A DNA stretch of 64,000 bases from a virus. The notes under the pieces are model-generated. The model had not been told where the DNA came from. It saw nothing but the letters and a program-made list of their open reading frames with translations, and did no database searches. The DNA is taken from positions 62,001-126,000 of IMG/VR virus record IMGVR_UViG_3300036768_001490. One strand, given 5' to 3'. Position numbers and translations under genes: made by a program. The first letter of the stretch is position 1; each line of letters begins with the position of its first letter. Positions 34,306 through 48,237 of this stretch are shown here, one piece after another.

Positions 34306-34315
34306 CATAACCGGC
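34306..34315 (-). promoter_or_regulatory. CCGGTTATG motif, copy 2, in a 303-bp gap
   Basis: GCCGGTTATG on the minus strand, about 220 bp upstream of the XhlA-like gene. The rest of the gap (34086-34388) shows no convincing gene or terminator. Confidence 0.4.
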
Positions 34316-34388
34316 CGACGCCAGCGGCAGGCAGCGGCCGGCCAGCGACACGCATTGTAACGGCGGGCAGCGCCACGGGGCCAGACCA

Positions 34389-34652
34389 TCAGCCCACGGG
34401 TCGCACGCAACGCCCCTCGGTGAAGCTGTGACAGTGGTACGGCCGGCCGCAGTCGCAGGAATGGGTCAACGTGGCCAGAACCCGGGACACGGCGGCCTTG
34501 GAATGGGACCAGACCGGACCGACGCGCACGCCGCTGTAAAGGCATTCCGCGTACACGCAAAGCTGGTTCTGGCCCCTTTCGTTGCGGGACCGTGTGAAGT
34601 GAACGACGGCAGGCGCCGCCCGGCGTGGCAGGAAATGTCGGCGGCTGGTCAT
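34389..34652 (-). CDS. Cysteine/histidine-rich small protein, 87 aa
   Basis: The 87-residue protein has a basic N-terminus, then LCVYAECLYSGVRVGPVW, SHSKAAVSRVLATLTHSC and CDCGRPYHCHSF. Four to five Cys and three His near the C-terminus could bind a metal. I have an impression of related small planctomycete proteins with an 'SGVR-GP-WSHS' core, but no function. No clear ribosome site is visible, so the true start could be internal. A terminator lies just upstream, so it is probably transcribed separately from the glycosyltransferase gene. Confidence 0.4.
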   Translation of the reverse strand: MTSRRHFLPRRAAPAVVHFTRSRNERGQNQLCVYAECLYSGVRVGPVWSHSKAAVSRVLATLTHSCDCGRPYHCHSFTEGRCVRPVG

Positions 34653-34672
34653 GGTCGGGGCACTCGGAAAAG

Positions 34673-34703
34673 AAACCGGCAGACGTCCGTGGCCTGCCGG
34701 TTT
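34673..34703 (-). terminator. Rho-independent terminator after the 291-aa glycosyltransferase
   Basis: Arms AAACCGGCAG and CTGCCGGTTT form a ten-base perfect stem around an 11-base loop, followed on the minus strand by TTTCTTTTCC. It lies just downstream of the stop at 34808. Confidence 0.75.
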
Positions 34704-34807
34704 CGACGGTACTCCTCCGCCCAGGAGGAGATGCGCATGGTCCCGCTCTCCTTCCAGTCTACCACCCGGGGCGCGAGCTTTCCAGCCCGCCCGACGCAGG
34801 CCAGGGG

Positions 34808-35683
34808 CTAGACCTCCTGGACAATCTCCACACTATCGTCGGCCTGCAAGTTGACAGGGTAGAGGCCGTCCGGCCAGCGGCCCGAGGTTTCGTGGGTGAA
34901 GGCCACGGCGTCCACGCCGCTCACCGTCACCGTGGCAGCGTCCCACAGGTAGTGGTCCAGAGCGGCCCGCACGTCCGGCTCATGCCGCCGCAGCCACTCC
35001 GCCGTCCGTCCCCGGGACTGCGCCAGCTTGCGATGGGCCTCGTGGCCGCGCAGGTTGTTATGAGTCACGCCGACCATGTGGTGATAGGTCAGGTCGCCCA
35101 ACGCGACCAGGCGCGGCCGCTGGCCGATGGTGTGCGGCCCGCTCAGAATCTCAACTGCCGGCGACAGACGGAAATGCCCCTCCGGGCAGGGGAACACGTC
35201 CCGCGGCCCCATGACCGTCGAGGGGACAACGCGCTCGGCAGCCGGCGCCCCAGGCACCTCGCAGTGGACCACAAAGACCTCGTTGCTGTCATGGAAGTAA
35301 TAGAGCGACCCCGCGAACGCGGTCAGCGCGTCCGGGAAGCGCAGCTGCCGGTCCACCTGCACCTCCAGGCGTTCCGGCTGGTTCAGGTTGTCGTCGTCCC
35401 AGACAGTGATGAAGTCGCCCCGTGCCTGGCACAGGGCGTACAGCAAGCCCTCGGACGGCTGGTACACGCCGCGCGCGAACACCTTGACCACGCCTTCCCC
35501 ATCCACGCGCTGGGAAACGAAGTCCTGCACCAGAGAGGCGTAGTCGTTCTGGTCGCCCACCACGATGACCAGCTCGCGCCGCGGATAGGTCTGCCGCTGA
35601 AAGTCCAGGATGGCGCGTTGCAGCTGCCCCCAGCGCTCCGGGCGGCTGCTGCACAGGCACGATACCAGGGGGCCGTCCGCCAT
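34808..35683 (-). CDS. Family 2-type glycosyltransferase
   Basis: The protein has 291 residues. It opens with a GT-A fold: PLVSCLCSSRPERWGQLQRA, then TYPRRELVIVVGDQNDY and DFITVWDDDNLNQPERLEVQ, where the DDD is the metal/nucleotide-sugar-binding motif. The C-terminal part has HHMVGVTHNN and is unlike common families. The enzyme should transfer a sugar from an activated donor in the cytoplasm; the acceptor is unknown. AGGAGG lies seven bases before the start. It belongs to the 34808-38767 sugar-modification group. Confidence 0.75.
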   Translation of the reverse strand: MADGPLVSCLCSSRPERWGQLQRAILDFQRQTYPRRELVIVVGDQNDYASLVQDFVSQRVDGEGVVKVFARGVYQPSEGLLYALCQARGDFITVWDDDNLNQPERLEVQVDRQLRFPDALTAFAGSLYYFHDSNEVFVVHCEVPGAPAAERVVPSTVMGPRDVFPCPEGHFRLSPAVEILSGPHTIGQRPRLVALGDLTYHHMVGVTHNNLRGHEAHRKLAQSRGRTAEWLRRHEPDVRAALDHYLWDAATVTVSGVDAVAFTHETSGRWPDGLYPVNLQADDSVEIVQEV

Positions 35684-35708
35684 GCAAAGTCCTCCTCTCG
35701 CCTTCCAC

Positions 35709-36269
35709 CTAGACCGCGCCGCACAGGACCAGGGCGCTGGCGACCCGGTAGCCGTCCGGCTCGTTCACGTCCAGGGCCTCCACCAGCCCGACCGGGACAA
35801 TGTCCACGCGGACCGCCGGCGCCGGCGGCGCGGCGAACACACGCAGGCTGTCCAGCAGGACGTGCCCCTGCCGGAACAACCACGCCGGCTGGCACGCCGG
35901 ACTGCCGCCGTCCACGACCCGGGCGACGCACTCCTCGATCTTGGCCGCTGGCAAGAACGGAGTGGCAGGCCGCAGCACGGCCACGGCCGCGGCGCCGGCG
36001 GCCGGCCCCTGCGGCCCGCACAGCCAACTATCTAGACCGGCACGGTCGGCCAGCAGGTCCGCGGGGGCCGGCACCACCTCGACCTCCTCCGGCACCGCCA
36101 GCAGCTGCCGGGCCGTGTCTGCCAGGCCCGCGGAAACGACGCAGACGGACCGGTCCACGCCGCGGGCCTCCAGCAACTGCCCCAGGCACCAAGACAGCAC
36201 GGTCAGGTGCCCCAGGCGACGGAACGCCTGGTCGTCCTGGACAATCATGCAGGCCACCGTCCTGGCCAT
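35709..36269 (-). CDS. Cytidylyltransferase-like protein
   Basis: The 186-residue protein has VAVLRPATPFLPAAKIEECV in the middle and EALDVNEPDGYRVAS near the end. These match the 'LRPTSP' and 'D-N-P-D-A' elements of CMP-sugar (acylneuraminate-type) cytidylyltransferases. The N-terminal nucleotide-binding loop expected as 'IPARGGSK' is not evident (MARTVACMIVQDDQAF), so activity is uncertain and a degenerate nucleotide-sugar transferase is possible. Neighbouring glycosyltransferases suggest a role in supplying or handling an activated sugar. Confidence 0.55.
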   Translation of the reverse strand: MARTVACMIVQDDQAFRRLGHLTVLSWCLGQLLEARGVDRSVCVVSAGLADTARQLLAVPEEVEVVPAPADLLADRAGLDSWLCGPQGPAAGAAAVAVLRPATPFLPAAKIEECVARVVDGGSPACQPAWLFRQGHVLLDSLRVFAAPPAPAVRVDIVPVGLVEALDVNEPDGYRVASALVLCGAV

Positions 36270-36280
36270 CGCGCAGTCCC

Positions 36281-36874
36281 TTACGGCTGACCAGAAGAAG
36301 ACCAGCGCGGACGCCGCTCCGCCCTCCCCCGGCGCTCCACGCGCCCGTCCGTGTGGTAGATGGTGGACGACCCGTCATGCGGGTCCAGCGTGACCACCCG
36401 GTCGCGGCCAATGAAGGTGATGACCGCGTCCACCGGCACGTCCACCACGCCATCGTCACAAACAATCAGTCGGCCAGGGGTGCGGGCCGGGCCGGCCGGT
36501 CCCTTCCCAGACCACCCCTGACCATTCCCGCCGGCACCAGCAGCCGGCTGCGGCACCGGCCCGGGCTCCGTCAGCTGTTTCCTCTGTCCGTCCGGCCCCT
36601 CCAGAAAGCTCGACCCGTCCTCGTACAGCACAGCCCACCAGCCCCGCGCTCCTGCCACCGGCAGACGGCGCGGCCAGCGGCCAGGAGACGTCTCCTTCTC
36701 CTCCGTCTCTTCCACGCTGCCGGCCACCCCGGCCGACGACGTGGAAGGCACAGGAGAGGGAGCAGCGCCGTCCAGGATGACAGCCAACGCGACCAGCCCC
36801 AAGACAGCGGCGGCCGCCGCGGCGGCCAGCAGTCCAGGCCGCGCGGGCCAGCGGTCATGTCCCATCCCAACCAT
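36281..36874 (-). CDS. Single-pass membrane protein, 197 aa
   Basis: The 197-residue protein has one clear hydrophobic helix near residues 14-33 (GLLAAAAAAAVLGLVALAVI) with positive residues before it, so the bulk should lie outside the cytoplasm. The rest is Pro/Gly/Glu-rich linker, then a beta-like domain with RLIVCDDGVVDVPVDAVITF and GRDRVVTLDPHDGSSTIY. The start has GGAG five bases upstream. No enzyme motif; it may present or anchor the products of the surrounding sugar genes. Confidence 0.5.
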   Translation of the reverse strand: MVGMGHDRWPARPGLLAAAAAAAVLGLVALAVILDGAAPSPVPSTSSAGVAGSVEETEEKETSPGRWPRRLPVAGARGWWAVLYEDGSSFLEGPDGQRKQLTEPGPVPQPAAGAGGNGQGWSGKGPAGPARTPGRLIVCDDGVVDVPVDAVITFIGRDRVVTLDPHDGSSTIYHTDGRVERRGRAERRPRWSSSGQP

Positions 36875-36885
36875 GTTGCTCCGCC

Positions 36886-37686
36886 TCAGACCAGGTCGTC
36901 TGCCAGCAGGCAGTCCCGGACGTCCGAGGGTACGCAGCGCAACAGGCTGTCCAGGTTCGCAATGCGCTCCCGGACCCGGTTGCGGTTGCGTAGGCGGCGG
37001 CAGCCCGGGACCGCCCGGTCCGCGCAGGAAGGCAGCTCCAGGAAGTCAAATACCCGCTGCATCTCCCTCTGATAGTCCCGCAGCAGGTCACGGTACTGCA
37101 CCTCCAGACGGTCGGCGCAGGAGGCCCGGACCTTGCCCAGGGTGGCGGCGTGGCAGCGGCAGAACTCCGTCACCTCGTCCGCGTCCAGGTGGACCGGAGC
37201 AGGACAGGCCGCCGGCGCCGCGTCCCAGCCGCGCGTCCACACACCGGAGCGCTCGGCCTGCTTGAGGCTCACCAGGCAAGCCACCGGATTGCGCAGGACA
37301 ACGACCAGGCAGAAGTCCCCCTCGCGGTAACGCGACTCGAACAGCTCCCACAGCTCCAGCCGGCGCACGTCCGGGTACAGCACGCGGAAGCCGACCGCGC
37401 GCTCCCCCCGAAGGGGACGGTCCAGGATGACATGGTTGATGTACTGCCAGGGGGACGTCACGCCTTCCTGGAACCACTCCGGCAGGTGCCGCGGCCACCG
37501 GCTGGGGCCGAAGTATTCCTCGTGGCTGGCCCGCCGGACCTTCTCGTCCGGGTGAAACAGGTCGCCGTGGCAGACCGCGACGTGCCCCGGACGGTTGTTC
37601 AAGGTGGACTGGACCACGCGGGAGCCGCTGCGCACTTCGCCCACGACCACGTAGTTCAGGACGCGGACGTCCTGTCCTAGCAACAC
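36886..37686 (-). CDS. Sulfotransferase-like protein
   Basis: The GTG start at 37686 has GGGGGG upstream. Of 266 residues, VGEVRSGSRVVQSTL near the N-terminus fits the 5'-phosphosulfate-binding loop of PAPS-dependent sulfotransferases, CLVVVLRNPVACLVSLKQ fits the 3'-phosphate-binding strand, and RLEVQYRDLLRDYQREMQ plus VFDFLELP fits the C-terminal helix of Stf0-type enzymes. Such enzymes move sulfate from PAPS to sugars or other acceptors. The loop RSGSRVV lacks the usual 'T' and 'K', so activity needs testing. Its place among glycosyltransferases suggests sulfated glycans. Confidence 0.65.
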   Translation of the reverse strand: MLLGQDVRVLNYVVVGEVRSGSRVVQSTLNNRPGHVAVCHGDLFHPDEKVRRASHEEYFGPSRWPRHLPEWFQEGVTSPWQYINHVILDRPLRGERAVGFRVLYPDVRRLELWELFESRYREGDFCLVVVLRNPVACLVSLKQAERSGVWTRGWDAAPAACPAPVHLDADEVTEFCRCHAATLGKVRASCADRLEVQYRDLLRDYQREMQRVFDFLELPSCADRAVPGCRRLRNRNRVRERIANLDSLLRCVPSDVRDCLLADDLV

Positions 37687-37711
37687 GGTCCGTCCCCCCT
37701 TTCCCTGACGG

Positions 37712-38767
37712 TCAGGACAGCAACTGGCCGGCAGTCCCTGCCACTACCTCGTCGGACGTCCGGGGCCTGGCCTCGATGCCGAAGCCGGCCAGCAACACGC
37801 GCAGGTGCATGGCCTCCTGCTCGTCCAGCTCCCAGCGGCCGTGGTACTCCTCCTCGCTGTGGCCGTACATGAACTCCTCCCGGGGAGTGACGTTGTGCCC
37901 GTGGTAGGCTGCCACGGACAGGCCGTTAAAGGGGAACTGGCCATTGTCCACGGCCACGGTCCTGTCGCCGTAGTTCTCCAGCCAGAACGCCTGGGCATCG
38001 TTCACGTCCACGTCCGGGAAGCGCGCCTGGGAAGAGCGGGGCACCAGCATGGTGTTGGGGATGCCCTCTTCCTGGTGGTGGACGTAAGCCGTGGCCGTGT
38101 TAATGTCCACGCGCATCTGGTGCGTGAGCAGGGAGGCATGCCCAGGACGGCGAAAGCACATCTGGTAAGCCAGCTGGAGCGGATGGTAGTAGTCATCGTC
38201 GTCCCAGCAGGGACGGACCCAGTCGCCGTCCGCCAGCTCCAGGCCAATGTTGCGCATCTGGCCCAGGGTGAGCCGCCGCGGCAGGCTGACCCGGCGCTCC
38301 TTGATGGCGAAGTGGGGCACCGTGGTCACGTCCAGGTCGGTCGTGTTGACGATGACCAGCTGCTTGCGCGGGTAGACCTGCTCCACGAACTGCTGCACGG
38401 CCTTGCGGGCCATGCGGATGCGCTCCCGCAGGCCAAAGACCAGGATGCACGTCACCAGGGGCAAGTCCTCCCCCAGGCCGGAAGGAGGCACCACGGACTC
38501 CTTGCCCGCGTGCGGGTCCACCAGGGGGAACGGGAACGCGGACAGCGGTGCCGGCAGAAGGCTGGCCCCGCCGACCTGCCCACCTGCCTCTTCCTCCTTC
38601 TTTTCCTCCGGGCCTCGGTAGTCCGGGCTGGGAGGGACCGGCCTACCGGCCCGAATCGCCTCGACCTGCTCCCGCGTCAGATGAGGGAAGATCTCCCCCA
38701 GACTAGCCTTGGCCATCTCGCCGATGGGAATCCGCGCACTACCTCGGATCGGCATGCCGTTGCCCAT
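37712..38767 (-). CDS. Family 2-like glycosyltransferase, 351 aa
   Basis: The start at 38767 (MGNGMPIRGSARIP) is preferred because the longer open frame begins in the noncoding gap; GGAGGG is somewhat far upstream. An N-terminal charged linker (residues 40-80) precedes the catalytic domain: LVTCILVFGLRERIRM, VYPRKQLVIVNTTD and WVRPCWDDDDYYHPLQLA, where the DDDD-YYH motif matches nucleotide-sugar-binding glycosyltransferases. The protein ends in a helical region. A sugar is probably transferred in the cytoplasm; the acceptor is not known. Confidence 0.7.
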   Translation of the reverse strand: MGNGMPIRGSARIPIGEMAKASLGEIFPHLTREQVEAIRAGRPVPPSPDYRGPEEKKEEEAGGQVGGASLLPAPLSAFPFPLVDPHAGKESVVPPSGLGEDLPLVTCILVFGLRERIRMARKAVQQFVEQVYPRKQLVIVNTTDLDVTTVPHFAIKERRVSLPRRLTLGQMRNIGLELADGDWVRPCWDDDDYYHPLQLAYQMCFRRPGHASLLTHQMRVDINTATAYVHHQEEGIPNTMLVPRSSQARFPDVDVNDAQAFWLENYGDRTVAVDNGQFPFNGLSVAAYHGHNVTPREEFMYGHSEEEYHGRWELDEQEAMHLRVLLAGFGIEARPRTSDEVVAGTAGQLLS

Positions 38768-38974
38768 GTGTCGGATGCTCCCTCCAGAAAGAAAGGAGAA
38801 GGAAAGGACAGCGATGGGGCCGATGCCCCGCCGGACGGAAGGGACCACGCGACCGGGAACGGCAGAAGGGAAACGGACCGCCTGGTAAGGGTAAGGGGCT
38901 AAAGGGAAAGTTACCGTCACCGGCCGCGTGGACCCGTCCGTCCTGCCACAGGACAGCGGCGGACGACAGCATAA

Positions 38975-38984
38975 CATAACCGGT
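38975..38984 (-). promoter_or_regulatory. CCGGTTATG motif, copy 3
   Basis: ACCGGTTATG on the minus strand, 208 bp upstream of the glycosyltransferase start at 38767. A TTGCTT about 20 bases before TATGCT may make it sigma70-like. Confidence 0.4.
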
Positions 38985-39056
38985 CTTCCGACAAAAGCAA
39001 CTCGATTTTTGCAGGCAATGGTCCCCGCGGCAGGGACGGACCGGAAGCAAAAGAAC

Positions 39057-39090
39057 GGGGCCGGCCACGTAGACAGTCATGACCGGCCCC
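39057..39090 (-). terminator. Terminator-like hairpin of the noncoding region
   Basis: Arms GGGGCCGG and CCGGCCCC form an eight-base stem with an 18-base loop, followed on the minus strand by GTTCTTTTGC. It lies about 450 bases downstream of the promoter at 39541-39569. Confidence 0.6.
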
Positions 39091-39534
39091 AGCGGAGGGG
39101 AAGGAACGAACAGGTTGACAGCACTCGTACCCTTTGAGGAGGAAGGAGAAAGTTCCCTTGTGGCGGCCGCGCCGAACCGCCTTAACCCGCCAAGTACCCG
39201 CCCGGACAGCGTGCAGGCCAGCTGCTCCTCCCACCTTCGCCCCTGGTGGCAGCTTCCTTGCCCGGGTAGCCAGCCACAGCACGGCTGCTCCACCCCTGCG
39301 CCAGGACCGCCACGGCCTCCGTCATCCCAAACGCCGTCCGTGCCGGGAGGAAAAAAGCAACAGGATGCAACCCCCACCGGGCGGGACAAGGTACAGGGAC
39401 AGATACCGACGCTACCGTGGCCGGCCACGGCCAGCCGGCCCACGCTCGGCTTCTTGCCTGGTCCGAGCCGGACATGACAGTCGCCACGGCACCGTGGTCC
39501 TGGTCCCGCCTGGCGCACTGCAAGAGTTGCGCCA
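39057..39534 (-). ncRNA. Candidate noncoding RNA between promoter and terminator
   Basis: A near-consensus promoter at 39541-39569 and a terminator-like hairpin at 39057-39090 enclose about 480 bases with no well-supported gene. The sequence is GC-rich with several short inverted repeats (for example GGCCGTGGCCGGCCACGG-type). A protein of 117 codons starts at 39535, but that ATG would lie at the transcription start with no leader. A regulatory or decoy RNA is possible. Confidence 0.35.
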
Positions 39535-39540
39535 AGAGGG

Positions 39541-39569
39541 AGTGTAGAAAACGGCACGCGCACTGTCAA
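39541..39569 (-). promoter_or_regulatory. Strong sigma70-like promoter
   Basis: TTGACA (minus strand, 39564-39569), a 17-base spacer and TACACT (39541-39546). This is a near-consensus host-type promoter reading toward lower coordinates. Confidence 0.75.
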
Positions 39570-39649
39570 TAGGCCAGCTTCGACTTTTCTGCCAGGACGG
39601 ACCTGGGCTCCACCACCCCCACACCCACCTATTCCAGCCAGCCCTACAC

Positions 39650-39742
39650 CAGCCGAAAGCGACCACAAGAAGACATGCCTTGCTGATAGCTAAGAAAAAG
39701 AACGACGCCCCAGCCGATCCGCTTCCTGCGAATCGGCTGGGG
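39650..39742 (-). repeat. Cassette repeat R0 (partial) with terminator
   Basis: The left-most, partial copy of the intergenic repeat. It contains GCGACCACA-AGA-ACATGCCT and TAGCTAAGAAAAAGAACGAC as in the other copies. The terminator (39708-39742) has 15-base arms, CCCCAGCCGATCCGC and GCGAATCGGCTGGGG, with one mismatch, followed by a T-rich run (TTCTTTTTCTTA) on the minus strand. It closes the 151-residue gene. Confidence 0.8.
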
Positions 39743-39747
39743 AGAGA

Positions 39748-39775
39748 GGAGTAGTCACTACATGGTGACTACTCC
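39748..39775 (-). repeat. Stop-codon hairpin of cassette A
   Basis: Arms GGAGTAGTCAC and GTGACTACTCC, 11 bp perfect, loop six bases; the stop codon of gene A is in the right arm. Analogous hairpins end genes B and C. Confidence 0.75.
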
Positions 39776-40224
39776 ATCACAGCCCTAACCTCCTCCATGA
39801 CGATGGAGGATGCCTTCATCCAGCGGATGAAGGCATCAAAAGAACTCGCTCTTTTGATGCCTTCCCTGGCCAGCTCCAACCTCCATCCTGGCGGACCATG
39901 CGTACCGTCCACCTGGATGGTCTCCCCACCCAGGCGGAACATTATCTTCCCATCCCTCGATGGGAAGAATGCAGCCCCCCCACTACCCTCCGTCAGCATC
40001 CTTGCCATTTCCGAGACAATCCTGTTCCCTTCCTGGGTTCTCACCTTCTCCCAGCCCCATAGGGCCGGGTGGTGACACTTCCTTTCCCTCCCGGCCAAGT
40101 CGGCCAGGAGGATGACCGCTACGTGGTGGTCGACGCCTTGGCGTCGACCTCCACGCCCTTGGCGGGAGATAATATACTCCTCTGCCGCTTGGCGGAGGAG
40201 TCCAAAGGTATTGGTGGTGGACAT
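39769..40224 (-). CDS. Cassette gene A, hairpin-rich paralogue of gene B
   Basis: The 151-residue protein has AAAGGAGG eight bases upstream of its ATG. Its core (AVILLADLAGRERKCHHPALWGWE, quoted in part, then RIVSEMARML and GPPGWRLELAREGIKRASS) aligns with cassette gene B over HPA-WGW, RI and GPPGWRL-AREG, so the two are diverged paralogues. No enzyme motif or membrane helix is seen. The coding DNA contains at least eight perfect hairpins, including arms of 13 bp (39809-39837), 12 bp (39832-39861) and 11 bp over the stop codon (39748-39775). Function unknown. Confidence 0.7.
   Translation of the reverse strand: MSTTNTFGLLRQAAEEYIISRQGRGGRRQGVDHHVAVILLADLAGRERKCHHPALWGWEKVRTQEGNRIVSEMARMLTEGSGGAAFFPSRDGKIMFRLGGETIQVDGTHGPPGWRLELAREGIKRASSFDAFIRWMKASSIVMEEVRAVME
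40128..40149 (-). repeat. Ten-base palindrome in gene A
   Basis: Arms GGTCGACGCC and GGCGTCGACC with only TT between, inside the coding sequence of gene A. Confidence 0.75.
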
Positions 40225-40254
40225 AAGAGTCCCCTCCTTTGCGGCATCTAGCCG

Positions 40255-40542
40255 CAGTTGTGTGGTAATAAAAATTGGACAGGAACGTCCTGTCCACCTT
40301 TTGTGACATCAATGGAGAAGATATTTAGGCAGGAGGCGGAGCACCCTGGTCAGAGCAGGGAGCATGGCGCAGGTAGCGCGCCTGAGCCTGATGGGAAGTA
40401 CACTGGCCTGATTGGTGGGAAACGTCTCCCGTGCTTGCTGACCCACGCCAGACGAAAGCGACCACAGGAAAACATGCCTGGCTGATAACTAAGAAAAAGA
40501 ACGACGCCCCAGCTGGTCCGCTTCCTGCGGATCGGCTGGGGA
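40255..40542 (-). repeat. Cassette repeat R1: leader of gene A and terminator of gene B
   Basis: About 280 bases shared with R2 and R3 at roughly 90% identity by eye. From right to left it carries the terminator of gene B (arms near 40507-40541, minus-strand run TTCTTTTTCTTAG), a conserved core of about 150 bases with an AT-rich CTAAATATC block, and the leader hairpin GGACAGGA/TCCTGTCC (40277-40295) just before the Shine-Dalgarno of gene A. Confidence 0.85.
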
Positions 40543-40544
40543 AG

Positions 40545-40573
40545 AGGAGTAAGCCGCTACGCGGCTTACTCCT
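40545..40573 (-). repeat. Stop-codon hairpin of cassette B
   Basis: Arms AGGAGTAAGCCGC and GCGGCTTACTCCT, 13 bp perfect, loop TAC. It contains the stop codon of gene B. Confidence 0.8.
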
Positions 40574-41102
40574 TTCGGATCTCTTCCGTGATACTCCTCA
40601 CGACCGTACTCCAGATGGGTAGGTCATGAGGGATGGATATTACGTGAATCATTCTAAGTTGGGGTGGATACCCCGCTGATCGGAGTAGCCCTTCACGGGC
40701 TACTCTTAACCTCCATCCTGGAGGTCCGTGCTCGCGGCCGAGCAGTACCCTGCGTCCGTCATCCGTGACGAACACCAGCCTTTCTATCTCGGGGTGAAAT
40801 ACCCCGCCGTAAAACGGCGGCGATCCCCCTACGCTGCAGCGTCTTGCGACGGCCCGGATCGCCATCGACCATACCTCAATCCTTGCTTTGGGCTGTTGGC
40901 CGCTGCCCCAGCCCCAGAAAGCCGGGTGGCGTGCGCATCCCTCCTCTTCTCCGGCCATGTCAAGCATGGCGATGGCCGCAGAGTGTGCTGCAAGCTCCTC
41001 CGAGGAAACGTCTTTGCGATCCAGCCCGGCGAGGCGTAGGTAGTATTCCTCGGCCATGTTTGCCGCCATTATGAACCTGGTGGTTTCGTGATGGGACATC
41101 AT
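40566..41102 (-). CDS. Cassette gene B, paralogue of gene A
   Basis: The 178-residue protein has AAAGGAGG before two adjacent ATGs. Residues about 40-75 (AAIAMLDMAGEEEGCARHPA, then FWGWG) and GPPGWRLRVAREGLLRSAG match cassette gene A; the middle WSMAIRAVARRC resembles a stretch of the 27628-28035 protein. There is a Gly-rich loop (GGSPPFYGGVFHPEIER) and no membrane segment. The coding sequence holds hairpins such as arms of 13 bp over the stop codon (40545-40573) and 9 bp at 40683-40705, and an ACGCTGCAGCGT palindrome (40831-40842). Function unknown. Confidence 0.7.
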   Translation of the reverse strand: MMSHHETTRFIMAANMAEEYYLRLAGLDRKDVSSEELAAHSAAIAMLDMAGEEEGCARHPAFWGWGSGQQPKARIEVWSMAIRAVARRCSVGGSPPFYGGVFHPEIERLVFVTDDGRRVLLGREHGPPGWRLRVAREGLLRSAGYPPQLRMIHVISIPHDLPIWSTVVRSITEEIRKE

Positions 41103-41124
41103 GGTGTCCTCCTTTGCGGCTGTG

Positions 41125-41419
41125 CCGCAGTTGTGTGGTAATAAAAATTGGACAGGAACGTCCTGTCCGCGGCATTTATTGTGACATCAATGGAGAAGAT
41201 ATTTAGGCAGGATGTGAAGCACCCTGGTCAGGGCAGGGAGCATGGCGCAGGTAGCGCGCCTGAGCCTGATGGGAAGTACACTGGCCTGATTGGTGGGAAA
41301 CGTCTCTCGTGCTTGCTGACCCACACCAGCAGGAAGCTACCGCGAGAAAACACGACGGGCTGATAGCTAAGAAAAAGAACGACGCCCCAGCCGATCCGCT
41401 TCCTGCAGATCGGCTGGGG
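41125..41419 (-). repeat. Cassette repeat R2: leader of gene B and terminator of gene C
   Basis: A second full copy of the repeat. Terminator arms CCCCAGCCGAT (41385-41395) and ATCGGCTGGGG (41409-41419) are followed on the minus strand by a T-rich run. The leader hairpin GGACAGGA/TCCTGTCC is at 41150-41168. The central 150 bases are nearly identical to R1 and R3. Confidence 0.85.
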
Positions 41420-41428
41420 AGAGAGAGA

Positions 41429-41460
41429 GAGGAGTAGTCACCGAGTAGTGACTACTCCTC
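41429..41460 (-). repeat. Stop-codon hairpin of cassette C
   Basis: Arms GAGGAGTAGTCAC and GTGACTACTCCTC, 13 bp perfect, six-base loop. It contains the stop codon of the HEAT-repeat gene. Confidence 0.8.
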
Positions 41461-42366
41461 TTCTTTCTTGCCGCCAATCCTCCTCATGGCCTCGGCGACG
41501 GACTGTCGTACTCTTTCGTTTTGGTCCAGCCTATACCTGTTCAAGGCTGGCACGGCGTCCTTGCCGTCCGGGCCGAGCTTGCCGATGGCCTTGCACACAT
41601 GCTCTCGGATCATCCTGTTCTCGAGGGCTTTGACAAGAACCGGCAGCAAGGCCCTACCCTTGGAGGGGAAATCATCCACGATCTCCCCGAGGACCTCGAC
41701 CGCTGCTACCTGGGCGATATAGTGAAAGTAACCCGAACTAGAGTTCGGGTCGGATGAGATCAGCTTGACCATCATGGCGACCGTTTCGCCATCGTCCGGC
41801 GACACGGCGCCAAGGGCCTTGACCAGGCCCCTCACGTTTACGGTCTTGCTGTCCAGGCAGCGCTGAAGCGCTGCCCTCATAAGCGGGGCAAGCGGCCGAG
41901 CACCACGCTTCATCTCTTTGACTTCGTCGGCCAACGCCAGCAACTCTCTTGGCTGGCCGACTGCAAAGACGACCGCGTACTTGTACAGGTCTGGGCGAAC
42001 CTGCCGCAACGCTTTGGCGGCAGCCTGCACAACCTCCTTGTTGTTAGCCGACACCGCCATCGCCTCACACAGGGCATAGGCAGACTCCTCTTCCCTGGAC
42101 TTTGCCAATGCCTTGGCGGCGATCTTCTCGGCATCCGTACCTTCATGGCGCGCAATGGCTTCCTTGCACTTGGCCTTCGCCTGCTCTCCTCTCACGTCGC
42201 AGCCGCAGCCGCATTGCCAACCTAGCTTGGCCGCTGCACATGCCCCGATCACCATCCCGATCACCACTCCGAGCAGCAGGGCGGGAATGATGCCCTTGCT
42301 GCGGGAAGTTGCCGGCTGCAGCAGCACGACTACCTTGCACGAGTCGAGGACGAAGATGGTGTTCAT
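41452..42366 (-). CDS. Cassette gene C, membrane-anchored HEAT-repeat protein
   Basis: The 304-residue protein has GGGGAG before its ATG. A hydrophobic helix at residues about 27-50 (IIPALLLGVVIGMVIGACAA) is followed by a cysteine cluster (CGCGCD) and then HEAT/armadillo-like helical repeats (for example VAAVEVLGEIVDDFPSKG, then AIGKLGPDGKDAVPALNR, then ERVRQSVAEAMRRIGG). Such repeats form curved scaffolds for protein binding; the helix suggests it faces the membrane. The coding DNA again has perfect hairpins at 41731-41750 (9 bp), 41774-41792 (7 bp) and 41856-41875 (9 bp). Function unknown. Confidence 0.7.
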   Translation of the reverse strand: MNTIFVLDSCKVVVLLQPATSRSKGIIPALLLGVVIGMVIGACAAAKLGWQCGCGCDVRGEQAKAKCKEAIARHEGTDAEKIAAKALAKSREEESAYALCEAMAVSANNKEVVQAAAKALRQVRPDLYKYAVVFAVGQPRELLALADEVKEMKRGARPLAPLMRAALQRCLDSKTVNVRGLVKALGAVSPDDGETVAMMVKLISSDPNSSSGYFHYIAQVAAVEVLGEIVDDFPSKGRALLPVLVKALENRMIREHVCKAIGKLGPDGKDAVPALNRYRLDQNERVRQSVAEAMRRIGGKKEEE

Positions 42367-42414
42367 AACGAACTCCCCAAATGGGCGACGCCCAACTGAC
42401 GCACATGCGTCAGT

Positions 42415-42694
42415 CGTGGTTAGATTGGACAGGAACGTCCTGTCCGCGGCATTTATTGTGGCACCAATGGAGAAGATATTTAGGCAGGAGGCGGAGCACC
42501 CTGGTCAGGGCAGGGAGCATGGCGCAGGTAGCGCGCCTGAACCTGATGGGAAGTACACTGGCCTGGTTGGTGGGAAACGTCTCTCGTGCTTGCTGACCCA
42601 TGCCAGCCGGAGGCTACCACGAGAAAACATGCCGGGCCGATAGCTAAGAAAAAGAACGACCCCAGCCGATCCGCTTCCTGCAGATCGGCTGGGG
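42415..42694 (-). repeat. Cassette repeat R3: leader of gene C and terminator of gene D
   Basis: The third full copy. The leader hairpin is at 42427-42445; the conserved core and CTAAATATC block follow; terminator arms CCCCAGCCGAT (42660-42670) and ATCGGCTGGGG (42684-42694) close gene D. The copy differs from R1 and R2 at scattered positions only. Confidence 0.85.
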
Positions 42695-42709
42695 GGAATG
42701 CGGGCAGCC

Positions 42710-42856
42710 CTAAACGGGCCACCCGCAGGTGGGACACTCCTCCGTGAAACACGGAGGAGTGTCCTCACCGCAGTGAGGACACCTGTCGGCCCCCACTGCC
42801 TCCTCCTCATCGAGGAGGATGTCGTCGTCGTACTCGAAGTCGTAGTAGTACATCAT
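42710..42856 (-). CDS. Cassette gene D, 48-aa zinc-ribbon protein
   Basis: This gene is too small for routine gene finding. Its two adjacent ATGs follow AAGGAGGGG. The product is 48 residues: an acidic N-terminus (YYYDFEYDDDILLDEEE) and a CPHC-x9-C-x4-CPTC-type zinc ribbon (RCPHCGEDTPPCFTEECPTC in part), ending GWPV. The spacing of the four outer cysteines fits a rubredoxin-like zinc knuckle used for protein or nucleic-acid binding. The coding DNA is dominated by three perfect hairpins (15, 10 and 8 bp), two of which share an arm. It occupies the same repeat-flanked layout as genes A-C. Confidence 0.7.
   Translation of the reverse strand: MMYYYDFEYDDDILLDEEEAVGADRCPHCGEDTPPCFTEECPTCGWPV
42732..42764 (-). 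repeat. 15-bp perfect hairpin in gene D
   Basis: Arms GGACACTCCTCCGTG and CACGGAGGAGTGTCC with loop AAA. Its right arm overlaps the left arm of the next hairpin (42759-42782). Confidence 0.85.
42759..42782 (-). repeat. 10-bp hairpin in gene D, exclusive with the 15-bp one
   Basis: Arms GTGTCCTCAC and GTGAGGACAC with loop CGCA. Because it shares bases 42759-42764 with the previous hairpin, both cannot form at once in full. Confidence 0.8.
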
Positions 42857-42879
42857 TTCCCCTCCTTAAGGGATAACGT

Positions 42880-42945
42880 TTATTGGACAGGTACGTCCTG
42901 TCCACCTTTTATGACACCAGTGGAGGGGATATTTAGGCGGGGAGG
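42880..42945 (-). repeat. Cassette repeat R4 (partial): leader of gene D
   Basis: A short copy with the leader hairpin (42885-42903, variant loop), the ATGTC-like bases and the CTAAATATC block, before the sequence changes to the terminator of the metacaspase gene. Confidence 0.7.
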
Positions 42946-42975
42946 ATGGAGCGCCTGAATGTTGGCAGAGAAAGG

Positions 42976-43010
42976 AAAAACCCCGCCACCGTGACGCCAC
43001 GGCGGCGGGG
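42976..43010 (-). terminator. Rho-independent terminator of the metacaspase gene
   Basis: Arms CCCCGCCACCGTG (plus strand) and CACGGCGGCGGGG around a short ACGC loop form a long GC stem, followed on the minus strand by TTTTT. It is 33 bp downstream of the stop. Confidence 0.9.
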
Positions 43011-43043
43011 CCGTCAGGGATGACCGGAGGTGGAGCGCCCCGG

Positions 43044-43847
43044 TCAGAACAGGGGAGTATTCCGAAGCGCCGGCAGCGCGTTAAGCTGAGGCGTCTGCTG
43101 GAAGTCCCAGGAGGGCAAATACTGCCGCAACTGGCGGAAAACGTCCTGATACGTGCCGCCCCGCGACTGCACCAGCCGGAAGGCACGCAGGGCGTAATAG
43201 GTCATGGCGCCGCAGAAGCGGCCGCCAATCCGCGCGTCCGCGCTGTACTCATGGTCCCGGCAGGCCGAGAAGTGAATGACGCCAGGCAGAGGCTGGTCCT
43301 GCCACCGGACCTGCTGGCCAAAGGCGCGCTCCATGCCATGCCACAACGGACTGTCGGGCGAAAGGAAGTGGGACGGCGGCAGGAAACGGACCCTCCGCTC
43401 CGACACGCTGCTGTCCGTGGCGAAGCGGAAGACCGAGCCCGAATGGCAGCAGTCACTGATCCAGAGCAGGCGCGCTCCCGGACGCAGCCGGCCAAACAGA
43501 TCGGCCAGTTCGTCGTCCAGGATCAGGTTGCGGCCATTGTCGCCCATGTCCGCCGGGCACAGCGCCTCGTCCCGGCCGTCCGGCTCGTCCCCGGAGAGGT
43601 CCGGCAGCCAGGTGCCGTGGCCAGAATACGTCACGGCGCTGCACGTGCCCGGCGACGTCTGGTCGATGACCTGCCGCAGGGCCGTCAGGATGTTACAGCG
43701 GCTGGCCTGGCGCTCCAGCATGGAGACGACGTCGAAGCCCTGGCCATGCAGGAAGCTGCCCCAGTCGTTGGCATCGTTGATGCAGCCGCGCAGCTCAAAC
43801 GGAGTGCCCGTGTAATTGATGCCGATGCACAGTGCCTTGCCCGACAT
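43044..43847 (-). CDS. Metacaspase-like cysteine peptidase (C14)
   Basis: The 267-residue protein opens KALCIGINYTGTPFELRGC and follows the p20-like caspase-fold order: VTYSGHGTWLPD with His77, GRDEALCPAD with an Asp suited to the basic S1 pocket, and LLWISDCCHSGSVF with catalytic Cys134. The His-Cys dyad is intact. The C-terminal part (HFSACRDHEYSADA, then GAMTYYAL) looks like the p10-like region. Metacaspases usually cut after Arg or Lys and act in proteolysis or cell-death-like processes. It has its own terminator and GAGGAGGG ribosome site. It is a rare find in phage and may process virion or host proteins. Confidence 0.8.
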   Translation of the reverse strand: MSGKALCIGINYTGTPFELRGCINDANDWGSFLHGQGFDVVSMLERQASRCNILTALRQVIDQTSPGTCSAVTYSGHGTWLPDLSGDEPDGRDEALCPADMGDNGRNLILDDELADLFGRLRPGARLLWISDCCHSGSVFRFATDSSVSERRVRFLPPSHFLSPDSPLWHGMERAFGQQVRWQDQPLPGVIHFSACRDHEYSADARIGGRFCGAMTYYALRAFRLVQSRGGTYQDVFRQLRQYLPSWDFQQTPQLNALPALRNTPLF

Positions 43848-43899
43848 GCCTGCCCTCCTCTCCCATTGCCTCCGGGCGACGGCCCAGCCCGCAGGAAAC

Positions 43900-43915
43900 C
43901 TAAAAAACGGATTTT
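43900..43915 (-). repeat. AT-rich 16-mer, copy 2 (inverted)
   Basis: AAAATCCGTTTTTTAG on the minus strand, identical to 15803-15818 but opposite in orientation; it overlaps the 3' end of the small membrane-protein gene. Confidence 0.6.
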
Positions 43916-44156
43916 ACCGGGCAGACGGCTGGACCGGGGCATCTCCCCCGCTTCTGGCCGCCGACGTCTCCCGATCCGTCGGCGGCCGGCTGGCCGGCGG
44001 CCAGCCACGGAACCAGACGCCCAGGTAGTAGCAGACCTGGGCCAGTACCGTCCCGGCCACGAACAGCAGCACAAGCCCGAGGACCAGGACGCTGAGGCTG
44101 AAGGCCATCTGGCTCAGCGCGGGCCACTTCCCGTAGGCTTCCAACCACCTGTCCAT
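43914..44156 (-). CDS. Small single-pass membrane protein, 80 aa
   Basis: The start at 44156 (MDRWLEAYGKWPALSQ) has GGGGG seven bases upstream and lies below a good promoter. The product has one strong hydrophobic helix (residues about 20-45, LSVLVLGLVLLFVAGTVLAQ) and a polar tail of about 28 residues with GVWFRGWPPAS. I associate this type with small planctomycete and phage membrane proteins of unknown role. It precedes the metacaspase, and the two may be co-transcribed. Confidence 0.55.
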   Translation of the reverse strand: MDRWLEAYGKWPALSQMAFSLSVLVLGLVLLFVAGTVLAQVCYYLGVWFRGWPPASRPPTDRETSAARSGGDAPVQPSAR

Positions 44157-44218
44157 TGCGCCCCCAGACAACAGCCCGCCAGCGAAGGCGGCACGGAACG
44201 ACCTGACGTCCGGTGCCA

Positions 44219-44247
44219 AGTATAGACGGCACGGCCCCTGACAGCAA
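44219..44247 (-). promoter_or_regulatory. Sigma70-like promoter before the membrane-protein/metacaspase pair
   Basis: TTGCTG (44242-44247), a 17-base spacer and TATACT (44219-44224), both on the minus strand. It lies just upstream of the start at 44156 and can drive the membrane protein and the metacaspase. Confidence 0.7.
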
Positions 44248-44253
44248 GCCGGC

Positions 44254-44832
44254 CTAACGCGCCGCCAGCAGCTCCCGCGCCTGCCGCAGGGCCTCCTCGT
44301 AGCGCTCCCCGAAGTAGCACCGGTCCCCCGCGTGGGCCTCCTGGAGAAGTCCCTGGATAAAGCAGGGGGACACGCCCAGGTCGAGCAGGTCGGACATCAG
44401 CAGACGGGTCGCGCGGCGATAGCCCAGGTACGGGTAGCCCGAGTCACCGGCGGCATGGCAGTAGGAGCGGTAGCTGGACAGGGAGGCATAACGCTGGGCC
44501 AGCGGACAGTCCCCTTCCATCACATAGGTCCGGCGGCGCGTGCAGTACCACAGGCCGTCCAGGCAGGGGTAGGGCTCCAGCTCCTCCAGCCAGGCCGCGT
44601 GCAGGGCGTCCAGCAGCCGGCGGGAGCGGCGCGCGACCTCCGCGTCCGGGTGGGTCCGCCCCGCCAGCAGGACGGGCCGGACCTGCCAGCCCAGGCGCTC
44701 CAGCCGGACGGACGCCTCCTCGCGCCGGCCGAAGTCCGGGTCGCCCAGCTGGTGGACCAGGGACCAGGCGTCCGGGTCCAGGCACAGGGGCCCCGCCGCC
44801 CACAGGTAAAGGCCAAGGAACAGGGCGTCCAT
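44254..44832 (-). CDS. Exported protein with planctomycete-type HEAT segment
   Basis: The 192-residue protein has GGAGGG before its ATG and a hydrophobic N-terminus (MDALFLGLYLWAAGPLCLD), likely a signal peptide or anchor. Residues about 23-80 (LVHQLGDPDFGRREEASVRL, then HPDAEVARRSRRLLDAL) follow the HEAT pattern 'L--LG-P-F--RE-A---LE' very common in planctomycete proteins. The rest has Cys/Tyr-rich stretches (CLDGLWYCTRRRTYV, then YRSYCHAAG) that may bind metal or form disulfides. It supports a planctomycete host by style only; function unknown. Confidence 0.6.
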   Translation of the reverse strand: MDALFLGLYLWAAGPLCLDPDAWSLVHQLGDPDFGRREEASVRLERLGWQVRPVLLAGRTHPDAEVARRSRRLLDALHAAWLEELEPYPCLDGLWYCTRRRTYVMEGDCPLAQRYASLSSYRSYCHAAGDSGYPYLGYRRATRLLMSDLLDLGVSPCFIQGLLQEAHAGDRCYFGERYEEALRQARELLAAR

Positions 44833-44870
44833 CGTTCTCCCTCCATCCTCTTCTCGGAAGCCAGTCAGAG

Positions 44871-45512
44871 CTAGTTATGCACGAACAGCGTGGCGCGGAC
44901 CTTCACGACCAGCCGGGGGCCAGCTACCCGGACCAGCCGGTCGATCCAGTCGCCGTCCGCGTTGAACGATGTCTTGTCGAAGGGCACCCGCCGGGCCAGC
45001 GCCGCCGCCACCAGCAGGCCGCCCAGGTCCAGGTGCCGGTAGCGCGGCTGAGTGACCAGCGGCTGCCACAGCCGATGGCTATGGACCATGTCGCAGTAGG
45101 CCAGCTGGGCCGGAGGCCGCGCCGCCGTGGCCTCGGCCAGCAGCCACTCCAGGAAGACCGGGGCGTACCAGTTGTCGTCGTTGGTCAGCAGCAGCCACGG
45201 ACACGTCCCCGCCAGCTCCTCGATGGCGCGCTGCCGCCAAGGGTGGCCGAACTGCTGCTTCCGGCTGGGCGTCTCCACCAGGGACAGGCGGGAGTCGCGG
45301 GCCGCTTCCTGCTCCCATTCCCGCCGGACGTCCGCGCTGGCCGGCCCGTCGTGGTAGGCCACCAGCCGCCAGTGGGGGTAGGTCTGAGCCTGGAAGGAGG
45401 CCAGCAGGGAACGCAGGGCGGCGCGGCGGCGCGGCTCGTCGTTGAGATAGGTGGCGACTCCGATGCCGACCGTGGGCGTGCCCCGGACCTGCTTGCTCCG
45501 CCAGTAGCGCAC
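44871..45512 (-). CDS. Family 2-like glycosyltransferase, 213 aa
   Basis: The GTG start at 45512 has GGGAGG five bases upstream. The fold reads VGIGVATYLNDEPRRRAALR, then FQAQTYPHWRLVAYHDG and PWLLLTNDDNWYAPVFLE, where the NDDN motif is the metal/donor site of GT-A enzymes. The end (FNADGDWIDRLVRVAG) may form the acceptor side. At 213 residues it is short for the family, so it could be a single-domain enzyme. Gene order with the methyltransferase and Maf-like genes suggests one glycan pathway. Confidence 0.7.
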   Translation of the reverse strand: MRYWRSKQVRGTPTVGIGVATYLNDEPRRRAALRSLLASFQAQTYPHWRLVAYHDGPASADVRREWEQEAARDSRLSLVETPSRKQQFGHPWRQRAIEELAGTCPWLLLTNDDNWYAPVFLEWLLAEATAARPPAQLAYCDMVHSHRLWQPLVTQPRYRHLDLGGLLVAAALARRVPFDKTSFNADGDWIDRLVRVAGPRLVVKVRATLFVHN

Positions 45513-45534
45513 CGTGGCCTCCCGCCGCCCGCCG

Positions 45535-46146
45535 TCAGGGGCGCAGCGTCACCTCCACCATGCGGATGTCCAGGCCCGTGTGGGTGAAGTGGTCCACCGG
45601 GTCCAGCAGGACCACCTGGTAGCGCTCCCGGTCCAGGCCGTTCACCAGGGGGCGGCAGCCAAAGTCGTCCCGTCCCTCGTAGTAGTCGTCCAGCAGGACA
45701 AGCGTGTGCGGCCCCATGACCCGGGCGACAGCGCCCCAGTCCGAGGCCACCGTGTCCAGGCTGTGCCCGCCGTCCAGGAAGATCAGGTCCGGCCGGATGT
45801 CCGTGTGCTTCGACCAGGGAACCAGCCGGTCGCGCGTGAAGCCCTTGAACAGCGTGACCTGGGCGCCCGTGGCCAGCAGCCGGAGCTTGACCTCGCTCTC
45901 GCGCGGCGGCAGGCGCTCCTTGGACAGCTCCGCCCGCGCGATCTCCGGCGTGCATAGCTCGAACAGGTCGAAGCCGATGTAGTGGGCCGTGCGGCCGGCG
46001 CTGTCCTTCAGCCAGGTGCTGAGCAGCTGGCTGGCGCGCACGCCGTCGTACGTCCCCACCTCCAGGAAGACCAGGTGCTTCCGCCCGCTCCGGCCGATCC
46101 GGTCCAGGGCACGGAACAGGTGGACATACCTTCCTAGCATGGCCAT
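45535..46146 (-). CDS. SAM-dependent methyltransferase-like protein
   Basis: The start at 46146 is chosen because GGAGG lies about nine bases upstream. Of 203 residues, HLVFLEVGTYDGVRASQLLS is the SAM-binding motif I, HYIGFDLFELC follows, and DLIFLDGGHSLDTVASDW is the DGGH-type motif of methyltransferase-24 family enzymes. It should move a methyl group from S-adenosylmethionine; many relatives act on sugars or antibiotics. Its neighbours suggest sugar methylation. Confidence 0.7.
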   Translation of the reverse strand: MAMLGRYVHLFRALDRIGRSGRKHLVFLEVGTYDGVRASQLLSTWLKDSAGRTAHYIGFDLFELCTPEIARAELSKERLPPRESEVKLRLLATGAQVTLFKGFTRDRLVPWSKHTDIRPDLIFLDGGHSLDTVASDWGAVARVMGPHTLVLLDDYYEGRDDFGCRPLVNGLDRERYQVVLLDPVDHFTHTGLDIRMVEVTLRP

Positions 46147-46204
46147 GCCATCCATCCTCCTCCCAGACATTCCCATGCGGCCGTGACTCCCCGCCCTTCC
46201 CCCA

Positions 46205-46903
46205 TCACAGCCTGGGCCGCGCCCTACGGTACGGCGACGTGTCCCGCGGCGGAGGCAGACGGGACAGGCCCCGCTCCAGGCAGAGGCGCTGGTAGTCCTC
46301 CTGCGGAGCGTCCAGGCCGACAAACGGGCTCAGAGTCAGCGTCTGCACGCCGAACGCCTCGCGCAGGGCCTTGCGGACCTTGGCCGTGTACCGGCGGTAC
46401 TCCTTGTAGATGATGTCCGGCTCCAGGCCATAGAAGCGGACATGCTGGTCGTGGCCGTGGTGGTCGCCGCACAGGTCGCAGTGGTCGCAGCCGACCAGGA
46501 TGACCGTGCGCGCCCCCATGCGGGCGGCCATGTCCATCGCCGTACACTGGACGCCGCGACCCAAAAACAGAGTGTCCCGCGGCCGGGCGCGCAGCGTGTT
46601 CCAGTCCTCGCTGGTATGGAAGACGTAGTGGCTCGGGTCGTCCAGCTCCAGGCATTTCATGGGCGGCTTCTTCTTGATGAGCCACTGCGTTGCCGGCCGC
46701 GACGGCAGCTGGAGGTACTCCAGGACCAGCTCCGGATGGACCGTGATGGAGTAGGTGGGCGCGAAGTAGCGGAACGCCTGGTTGAGGCCGATGGTGACGC
46801 GGCCGCGCAAGAACTCCATTGGGAAGCAGCGCATGGACGGCCCCGTGCCAACCACGTAGATGTCGTCGTTGCAGTGCTTGCGGTAAAGTTGTTCGATACG
46901 CAT
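46205..46903 (-). CDS. Maf/MptE-like (DUF115) protein
   Basis: The 232-residue protein starts MRIEQLYRKHCNDDIYVVGT with AGGG upstream. The segment DDIYVVGTGPSMRCFPMEF, then GRVTIGLNQAFRYFAPTY, fits the DUF115 / MptE-like domain (the 'GxGPS' nucleotide-binding loop) found in motility-accessory factors and glycosylation proteins. A second member is at 50573-51220. These domains handle nucleotide-linked sugars or pterins; here a sugar role is more likely because of the neighbours. Confidence 0.6.
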   Translation of the reverse strand: MRIEQLYRKHCNDDIYVVGTGPSMRCFPMEFLRGRVTIGLNQAFRYFAPTYSITVHPELVLEYLQLPSRPATQWLIKKKPPMKCLELDDPSHYVFHTSEDWNTLRARPRDTLFLGRGVQCTAMDMAARMGARTVILVGCDHCDLCGDHHGHDQHVRFYGLEPDIIYKEYRRYTAKVRKALREAFGVQTLTLSPFVGLDAPQEDYQRLCLERGLSRLPPPRDTSPYRRARPRL

Positions 46904-46922
46904 GGCGTCACCCTGTCTACGG

Positions 46923-47063
46923 CTAGCGCCACAGGACCACGTTGGTGCGCCAGGGAGCGGACCGCATGTAACGGCGGAAGCGGCGCGTGGCCAGTCCCAG
47001 GAACACGCCGGTCCCGCCCCGCTGCTCCAGCCGGTGCGGCGCCAGCTCCACGCACCAGGGCAT
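46923..47063 (-). CDS. Very small basic protein, 46 aa
   Basis: The start at 47063 (MPWCVELAPHRLEQRGG) follows GGAGGAAGGGACC, a strong ribosome site, and the frame ends at 46923 in VVLWR. It is Arg-rich (GLATRRFRRYMRSAPWR) and has no clear fold. Supported by the ribosome site and tight spacing rather than by similarity; function unknown. Confidence 0.4.
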   Translation of the reverse strand: MPWCVELAPHRLEQRGGTGVFLGLATRRFRRYMRSAPWRTNVVLWR

Positions 47064-47112
47064 GGTCCCTTCCTCCAGCAGACGGCGCGCCCGCCAGCAC
47101 CTGCCCTTCTGC

Positions 47113-47733
47113 TCAGGCCGGCGCGGGCGAGATGTCCAGGCCGTGCTCCCGCAGCCACTCCTCCACGTCCAGCTGGACGGCAGCGTAAGCGTCGTGCCGC
47201 TCCGCGTGGCGCCGGTTCCAGATGCGTGGGCACAGGATGGCGCCGGCTGGCACGCCATCCTCCTGGGCCCGGCCAAGGAAGGAGTCCACGTTCTCGTCCG
47301 AGTCGTCGATCAGGAGCGCGTGGGGCGCCGCGCACAGGTGCTTGTGCCGCGTCATGACGTAGCGGTCAAAGCCCGGATCTCCCGTCCATGCCCGCAGCCA
47401 GCGCTCCTTGCCCCAGGAGGCGGCGCCGCTGGGCGGCGCCGTCAGGAAGAAGACATCGGCCCGCTGGCGCAGCCAGGCATAAAAGTCCCGCGCTCCCGGG
47501 TACTCCTCCAAGGAGGACCAGAAGGAGGCATCGAGCCGCCGCAGGCGGCGACGGTACTGCCCCAGCGACCAGCCCAGAGAAACGCTCAGGTGCCAGTAGT
47601 CGCCCGGCGGCCAGGAAGCCTGCCTCTCCTCGGCGTCCAGGCCAAGGGAGCGGTACATGCCGCCGACGAAATCGGCCACGACTCCGTCCATGTCCAGCAG
47701 GACCGTGGCCCTTCTCTTCTTCCTGCGGCGCAC
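47113..47733 (-). CDS. 5'-nucleotidase-like HAD protein
   Basis: The GTG start at 47733 follows GAGGTGG. Of 206 residues, VLLDMDGVVADFVGGMYRSL is HAD motif I of the deoxyribonucleotidase (NT5C) type, VFFLTAPPSGAASWGKERWL is the T-x-P--K segment of motifs II-III, and HALLIDDSDENVDSF is motif IV. These enzymes dephosphorylate (deoxy)nucleoside monophosphates and so tune nucleotide pools; the phage also has a reductase. Confidence 0.7.
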   Translation of the reverse strand: MRRRKKRRATVLLDMDGVVADFVGGMYRSLGLDAEERQASWPPGDYWHLSVSLGWSLGQYRRRLRRLDASFWSSLEEYPGARDFYAWLRQRADVFFLTAPPSGAASWGKERWLRAWTGDPGFDRYVMTRHKHLCAAPHALLIDDSDENVDSFLGRAQEDGVPAGAILCPRIWNRRHAERHDAYAAVQLDVEEWLREHGLDISPAPA

Positions 47734-48237
47734 CTATTCCACCTCGCTCTCCCCGTCTCCGTCCGCGGCGGCGCCACGGAACGGCCGCAGGAACTCCCAC
47801 TCCTCATCATGCCACCGGCCGTCGCCGGGCAACTGCGACCACTGGCAGCGCAGCCGGCCGTCCGGCAAGATGGCCATGACGGCCACCCCGCGCTCCCGGC
47901 CGCTTCTGCCGCTGAAGCCGACCACCAGCGTGTTGTGCATGCGCTTGCCGGGGCCATACGGGCTGTCGTCGCCGTACCACTGCACCAGGTAGATGTCCCG
48001 CGCCTTGCGGATGCTGGCGACCAGCTCGTAGCTCTGGCCGCTGGCGATGTAGTAGCCTTCCCGCAGCTCGTTCTGCCGCAGCGCGGCCGGCACGTCCAGG
48101 CGGTCGTCCGCCCCCGCCCGAGGGGGCGGCAGGTGCTCCGCCACGACGCCCTGGCGGACACAGGCGCAGTCCAGCAGCGGCGGCAGGCCGCAGGTAAGGG
48201 CCAGGAAGGAAGACAGGAACCAGCCATGCAGGGACAT
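47734..48237 (-). CDS. Probable secreted protein, 167 aa
   Basis: The start at 48237 (MSLHGWFLSSFLALTCGLPP) has AGGAGGG about seven bases upstream; the first 20 residues look like a signal peptide ending near CGLPPLLDCAC, which may be lipoprotein-like. The mature part has YYIASGQSYELVASIRKARD and DIYLVQWYGDD, apparently beta-rich, followed by an acidic C-terminus. No enzyme motif. The stop abuts the next start. Confidence 0.5.
   Translation of the reverse strand: MSLHGWFLSSFLALTCGLPPLLDCACVRQGVVAEHLPPPRAGADDRLDVPAALRQNELREGYYIASGQSYELVASIRKARDIYLVQWYGDDSPYGPGKRMHNTLVVGFSGRSGRERGVAVMAILPDGRLRCQWSQLPGDGRWHDEEWEFLRPFRGAAADGDGESEVE

Follow-up and report, generated by a model that had tools for sequence, protein, structure and literature searches.

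Overlapping hairpins in coding sequences of a phage accessory-gene array: probable products of template switching, not an mRNA switch

The overlapping perfect stems in the coding sequences of two phage genes, A and D, probably represent successive inverted copies (X, X', X) left where a DNA polymerase switched templates at short quasi-palindromes, and not a regulatory switch. Both genes lie in the window (the whole stretch of 64,000 nucleotides analysed), which corresponds to G000:C1:62001-126000 of a 182,719-base virus record. Among the products encoded in the window were pieces of a multisubunit RNA polymerase and a ribonucleotide reductase. Relatives of this RNA polymerase were encoded at 80 IMG/VR loci, several of them on contigs of ~200 kb; the contig is therefore part of a large (~180-kb) phage that brings its own multisubunit RNA polymerase. 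Two accessory arrays of the contig, A-D and MORN-type, were saturated with hairpins and lay ~32 kb apart. The A-D array consisted of four minus-strand genes (A, B, C, and D), so that their transcripts read as the reverse complement of the letters shown, and had the following features:

39708-39742, minus: intrinsic terminator of cassette A (near-identical copies at 40507-40541, 41385-41419, and 42660-42694)
39748-39775, minus: stop-codon stem of A, 11 bp; stop codon in the 5' arm
39769-40224, minus: gene A, 151 aa; paralog of B (34% identity)
39809-39837, minus: 13-bp perfect stem in A; loop 3
39829-39864, minus: 15-bp perfect stem in A; loop 6; 39829-39837 common with the 13-bp stem
39945-39968, minus: further stem in A, 10 bp, perfect
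40122-40155, minus: further stem in A, 14 pairs, interrupted by a single A-A mismatch
40276-40296, minus: leader dyad GGACAGGACGTTCCTGTCC, downstream of the common block CCTAAATATC (copies at 41150-41168, 42427-42445, and 42885-42903)
40545-40573, minus: stop-codon stem of B, 13 bp; stop codon in the 5' arm
40566-41102, minus: gene B, 178 aa; paralog of A; stem excess z 4.4
40683-40705, minus: stem in B, 9 bp, perfect
41428-41461, minus: stop-codon stem of C, 14 bp; stop codon in the 5' arm
41452-42366, minus: gene C, HEAT-repeat protein, 304 aa; paralog outside the array (L006:1898-2995) without stem excess
41731-41750, minus: stem in C, 8 bp; unpaired with a different spacer in the paralog; template-switch-like
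42700-42726, minus: stop-codon stem of D, 11 pairs including two G-U in the mRNA; from a wide fold of D
42710-42856, minus: gene D, 48 aa; two CxxC knuckles (CPHC..CPTC), zinc-ribbon-like; two overlapping stems in the coding sequence
42732-42764, minus: 15-bp perfect stem in D; arms 42732-42746 and 42750-42764, loop 3
42759-42782, minus: 10-bp perfect stem in D; loop 4; 42759-42764 common with the 15-bp stem

Intergenic copies of ~270 bases (90-94% identical) were found between the array genes, each of which had its own promoter-like block and its own terminator (15-bp arms and a T-rich tail); within the contig, the block CCTAAATATC occurred only upstream of these four genes. Gene A matched no family in Pfam or PHROGs. 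A gene with a caspase domain (Peptidase_C14; 43044-43847) adjoined the array, and glycosyltransferase- and sulfotransferase-like genes flanked it on both sides (35709-38767 and 44871-46155). The phage also encoded a TROVE/Ro60 vWA-domain protein (54660-56345), and intein-like ends (VCGVLVSNS; VLANGVLTSNC) were recognised by eye in an RNA polymerase gene (18382-20136) and a long structural-looking gene (L010:4479-7346).

The two stems of D were present exactly as claimed in the first-pass annotation: 15 bp (42732-42764) and 10 bp (42759-42782), with six common bases. For gene A, the 13-bp stem (39809-39837) and the sharing of an arm were confirmed, but the second stem was 15 bp (39829-39864) and not 12 bp (39832-39861), and the overlap was nine bases (39829-39837; GAAGGCATC) and not six. 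Part of the overlap in D arises because both zinc knuckles of the protein open with Cys-Pro, hence TGTCC twice with GGACA between.

The array accounted for 11 of the 24 perfect stems of at least 9 bp in the window. Using first-order Markov shuffles as the chance baseline (64 kb, n = 20), 9 stems of at least 11 bp were observed against a mean of 0.2, and 6 of at least 12 bp against 0. When codons were shuffled within each gene with the protein and codon usage kept, the z values for total stem length were 7.15, 4.6, 4.4, and 3.6 for A, D, B, and C, respectively, and a 15-bp stem arose in only 0.05% (A) and 0.8% (D) of shuffles. In the same shuffles, stem base pairs amounted to 141 against 32 expected in the array, and 1128 against 840 in the other 153 genes. 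Chance is thus excluded as the source of the overlapping stems. Folding energies against codon-preserving shuffles gave z values of -7.3 (A), -2.9 (B), -4.9 (C), and -3.6 (D), and of -6.8, -5.3, and -4.6 to -4.8 for M1, M2, and M3 of the MORN-type array, compared with -0.5 for the paralog of C (Cpar) and -0.8 to -1.2 for homologs of the M genes outside the arrays (L012). Most ordinary genes were close to 0, with one (36886-37686) at -3.5. The stem excess is, therefore, a property of the arrays and not of the gene families, the same families being unsaturated elsewhere in the contig.

Two other causes were set aside. Low G+C was rejected since other low-G+C windows, including that of the C paralog, had no excess, and coding constraint was ruled out by the codon-preserving shuffles. 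The main peaks in a scan of the whole contig were the A-D array (z up to 17), L010:10.7-16.2 kb (z up to 15), and a repetitive gene at L006:9000-10500. In 50-kb pieces of two unrelated phages, short stretches reached z values of 7.8 and 9.9; therefore, moderate stem-rich patches are not special, and what is special here is only the height of the peaks and their location in coding sequence.

The second hairpin-rich array (L010:10737-16064, minus strand) contained three MORN-like genes, M1-M3, with repeated terminator and leader segments. The MORN-like repeats (HGRWVYPDGR) were assigned by eye, and the M genes had no Pfam match; the homologs outside the array, N1-N3 (L012), showed no stem excess. 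An ORF of 108 codons in a related phage (L109:1959-2285, minus strand) carried seven consecutive perfect stems of up to 16 bp, with a folding z of -12.5 relative to codon-preserving shuffles. A contig of a related phage was saturated with stems at L130:12000-13100, mostly without plausible genes, and contained overlapping X-X'-X and X-X'-X-X' runs (GGGTTGG..CCAACCC). Since related phages also have patches rich in stems, and unrelated phages have weaker ones, the stem-forming process is probably general, only its concentration in the present arrays being unusual.

Homologous copies provided the evidence on origin. The first-pass annotation had offered template switching at short palindromes as its alternative; this fits the paralog comparisons. 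The comparison of arms covered C and the M genes and not the stems of A and D, these having no close homologs. Among the lineage-specific differences between homologous copies, 57 created palindromes against 19 expected, and one-arm cases numbered 16 against 6.8, the expectation being obtained by local permutation of the variable letters and the pairs being overlapping and not independent, so that these counts do not constitute a single test. This excess was present in C and M1-M3, and absent in the outside homologs Cpar and N1-N3. In C and the M genes, where the arm-rewrite test was run, comparison with the homolog showed that one arm had been replaced by the reverse complement of the other; for example, C has acccgaac-TCTA-gttcgggt where the paralog has ACCCGAAT CAGA GTTTAGAT. 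Spacers were also inverted: ATCGTACGA in M2 against TCGCACGAT in M3 (8/9 positions matched inverted, 0/9 direct), TCGG against CCGA in the terminators of M1 and M2, and, for the stop stems of A and C, 4/6 inverted against 1/6 direct. Spacer inversion was clear in three cases, and the direct spacer was kept in other stems. When A was aligned with B, the residues encoded by the 5' arm aligned (AREG-I-K-R) and those of the 3' arm were unconserved, which suggests that the 5' arm in A came first and the other arms later.

The sole close relative found was 100% identical over the array and thus yielded no polarised history. Usable diverged orthologs for a polarised test were found neither with B in viral and genome contigs nor with an A+B alignment in viral contigs; 42 related phage contigs contained no homologs of C or the MORN-like gene, and no usable relative was obtained with C in genome contigs or with the array DNA in phages. 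With D, phages and viral contigs gave one distant partial match only (L153), from whose sequence the stems were absent.

The array-specific excess, the rewritten arms, and the inverted spacers point to template switching at quasi-palindromes, and the nearly flat energy ladder of the overlapping stems (see below) also speaks for it. Template switching is known to make and repair perfect stems (PMC8794818), and, between inverted repeats in coding genes, to homogenise arms and invert spacers (PMC8604942); quasi-palindrome mutation in highly transcribed yeast DNA is among the matters treated in PMC3820800. As described for E. coli, yeast coding genes, and RNA genes (PMC7202029, PMC8604942, PMC8794818, PMC3820800), such mutation shares with the arrays the conversion of imperfect into perfect stems, the rewriting of one arm, the inverted spacer, and the blockwise alteration of coding sequence. 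On the other hand, events in the known systems were inferred with a known phylogeny or measured directly in strains, whereas those reported here were deduced from paralogs only; the present events are also piled into two arrays of one phage, and adjacent stems share arms. In the mRNA sense, a fold-back would copy arm X as X', and the end of X' together with the next bases would then serve as the template for another arm; two such events in succession would give the X-X'-X layout, with two hairpins having a common arm. We infer that the switching took place during replication. Its concentration in the arrays may reflect their dispensability and individual transcription, as in the transcription-associated quasi-palindrome mutation of yeast.

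The first-pass annotation had instead proposed that the stems of each pair are mutually exclusive and act as a two-state, attenuator-like switch, in which the shared arm alternates partners and sets expression. Shared arms do exist, far above chance. However, mutual exclusion holds for the shared bases only. When the boundary of these bases was shifted between the stems one base per step, the energies formed a nearly flat ladder without two distinct states: -33.7, -34.3, -34.4, -34.1, -34.8, -34.1, and -34.7 kcal/mol for the seven registers of D (spread 1.1), and -23.8 to -25.5 kcal/mol for the ten of A (spread 1.7). Stem cores of at least 9 and at least 4 bp (D), or at least 6 and at least 4 bp (A), persisted in every register, and both loops were retained throughout. 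Since all registers lie within 1.1 (D) or 1.7 (A) kcal/mol, the two hairpins are predicted to coexist, with the shared bases branch-migrating freely between them. Furthermore, the stems are located inside translated ORFs and not in leaders, there is no leader peptide, and neither stem of a pair is followed by a U-run; no competing terminator occurs among the pairs, the actual terminators being separate and downstream (39708-39742 and 42660-42694). A search of 34000-48000 against Rfam found no family at the gathering score. Trp-type transcription attenuators resemble these stems in having alternative pairings with a common arm, but differ from them in that the array stems lie in the coding body, have near-equal registers, and include no terminator as either alternative. 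The two-state switch was rejected on energies and location, and we regard it as highly improbable.

If attenuation exists in the array, the leader dyads of A and B are the better candidates. These dyads (40276-40296 and 41150-41168, minus strand) are followed by ATTTTTATT and thus look like terminators, placed after the promoter-like block and ahead of the start codon; the T-run is absent from the leader dyads of C and D. Similar to phage operons with intrinsic terminators, every cassette closes with a stem of 15 pairs followed by a T-rich tail; the array differs in its overlapping coding stems without a T-run and in an extra stop-codon stem per cassette. In all four genes, a stem covered or adjoined the stop codon directly before the terminator, and in B both arms were unlike those of A and C, with pairing still complete. 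The stop-codon stems may additionally be retained as a 3'-end component.

Selection for mRNA structure is a possible, although rather unlikely, explanation of the whole. Heavy folding of the array transcripts would be maintained, for instance as protection from nucleases or to set the pace of translation, template switching would be only the source of raw material, and the overlapping stems would be part of this folding and not a switch. The strongly negative folding z values of A-D and M1-M3, compared with values near 0 for Cpar, the M homologs, and most ordinary genes, are consistent with this, as is the closing of all four A-D genes with a stop-codon stem. Compensated differences between copies (terminators and stop stems) are expected equally from selection and so count against template switching, which by itself also leaves the saturation of the arrays alone unexplained; in near-perfect stems, the slight preponderance of G-U over A-C mismatches (7 to 3, not significant at such small numbers) hints at selection at the RNA level. 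However, the stem in A was paid for in unconserved amino acids and not in synonymous choices, selection for pairing does not require inverted spacers, the very stem-rich L130:12000-13100 lies largely outside plausible genes, and the ordinary gene at 36886-37686 likewise reached a z of -3.5.

A small family of mobile palindromic elements inserted in genes might be suspected from the many stems in a small region and the relatedness of the stop stems of A and C; this is very doubtful because blastn with the whole array located no further copy in the contig of the stems in the coding sequences of A and D, and stem sequences and lengths differ. The mobile family was rejected on this lack of recurrence within the contig. 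Inverted copies are a known artefact of amplification, and an artefact of amplification or assembly would produce them here as well; we consider this equally implausible, since an identical array was found in a second IMG/VR record, the reading frames are unbroken, and contigs of other metagenomes have patches of the same kind.

Taken with template switching as the probable origin, it is tentatively proposed that large phages of this RNA-polymerase-bearing group hold accessory-gene islands whose coding sequences actively gain hairpins and retain them, namely a local, transcription-linked template-switch hotspot that diversifies proteins and makes their mRNAs unusually folded. If such a hotspot is real, it would be a natural system for learning why quasi-palindrome template switching concentrates in certain genes, and a route to blockwise change in phage accessory proteins. 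It would also be a caution that a strong hairpin with compensated arms, in genes of this kind, is on its own no evidence of regulation.
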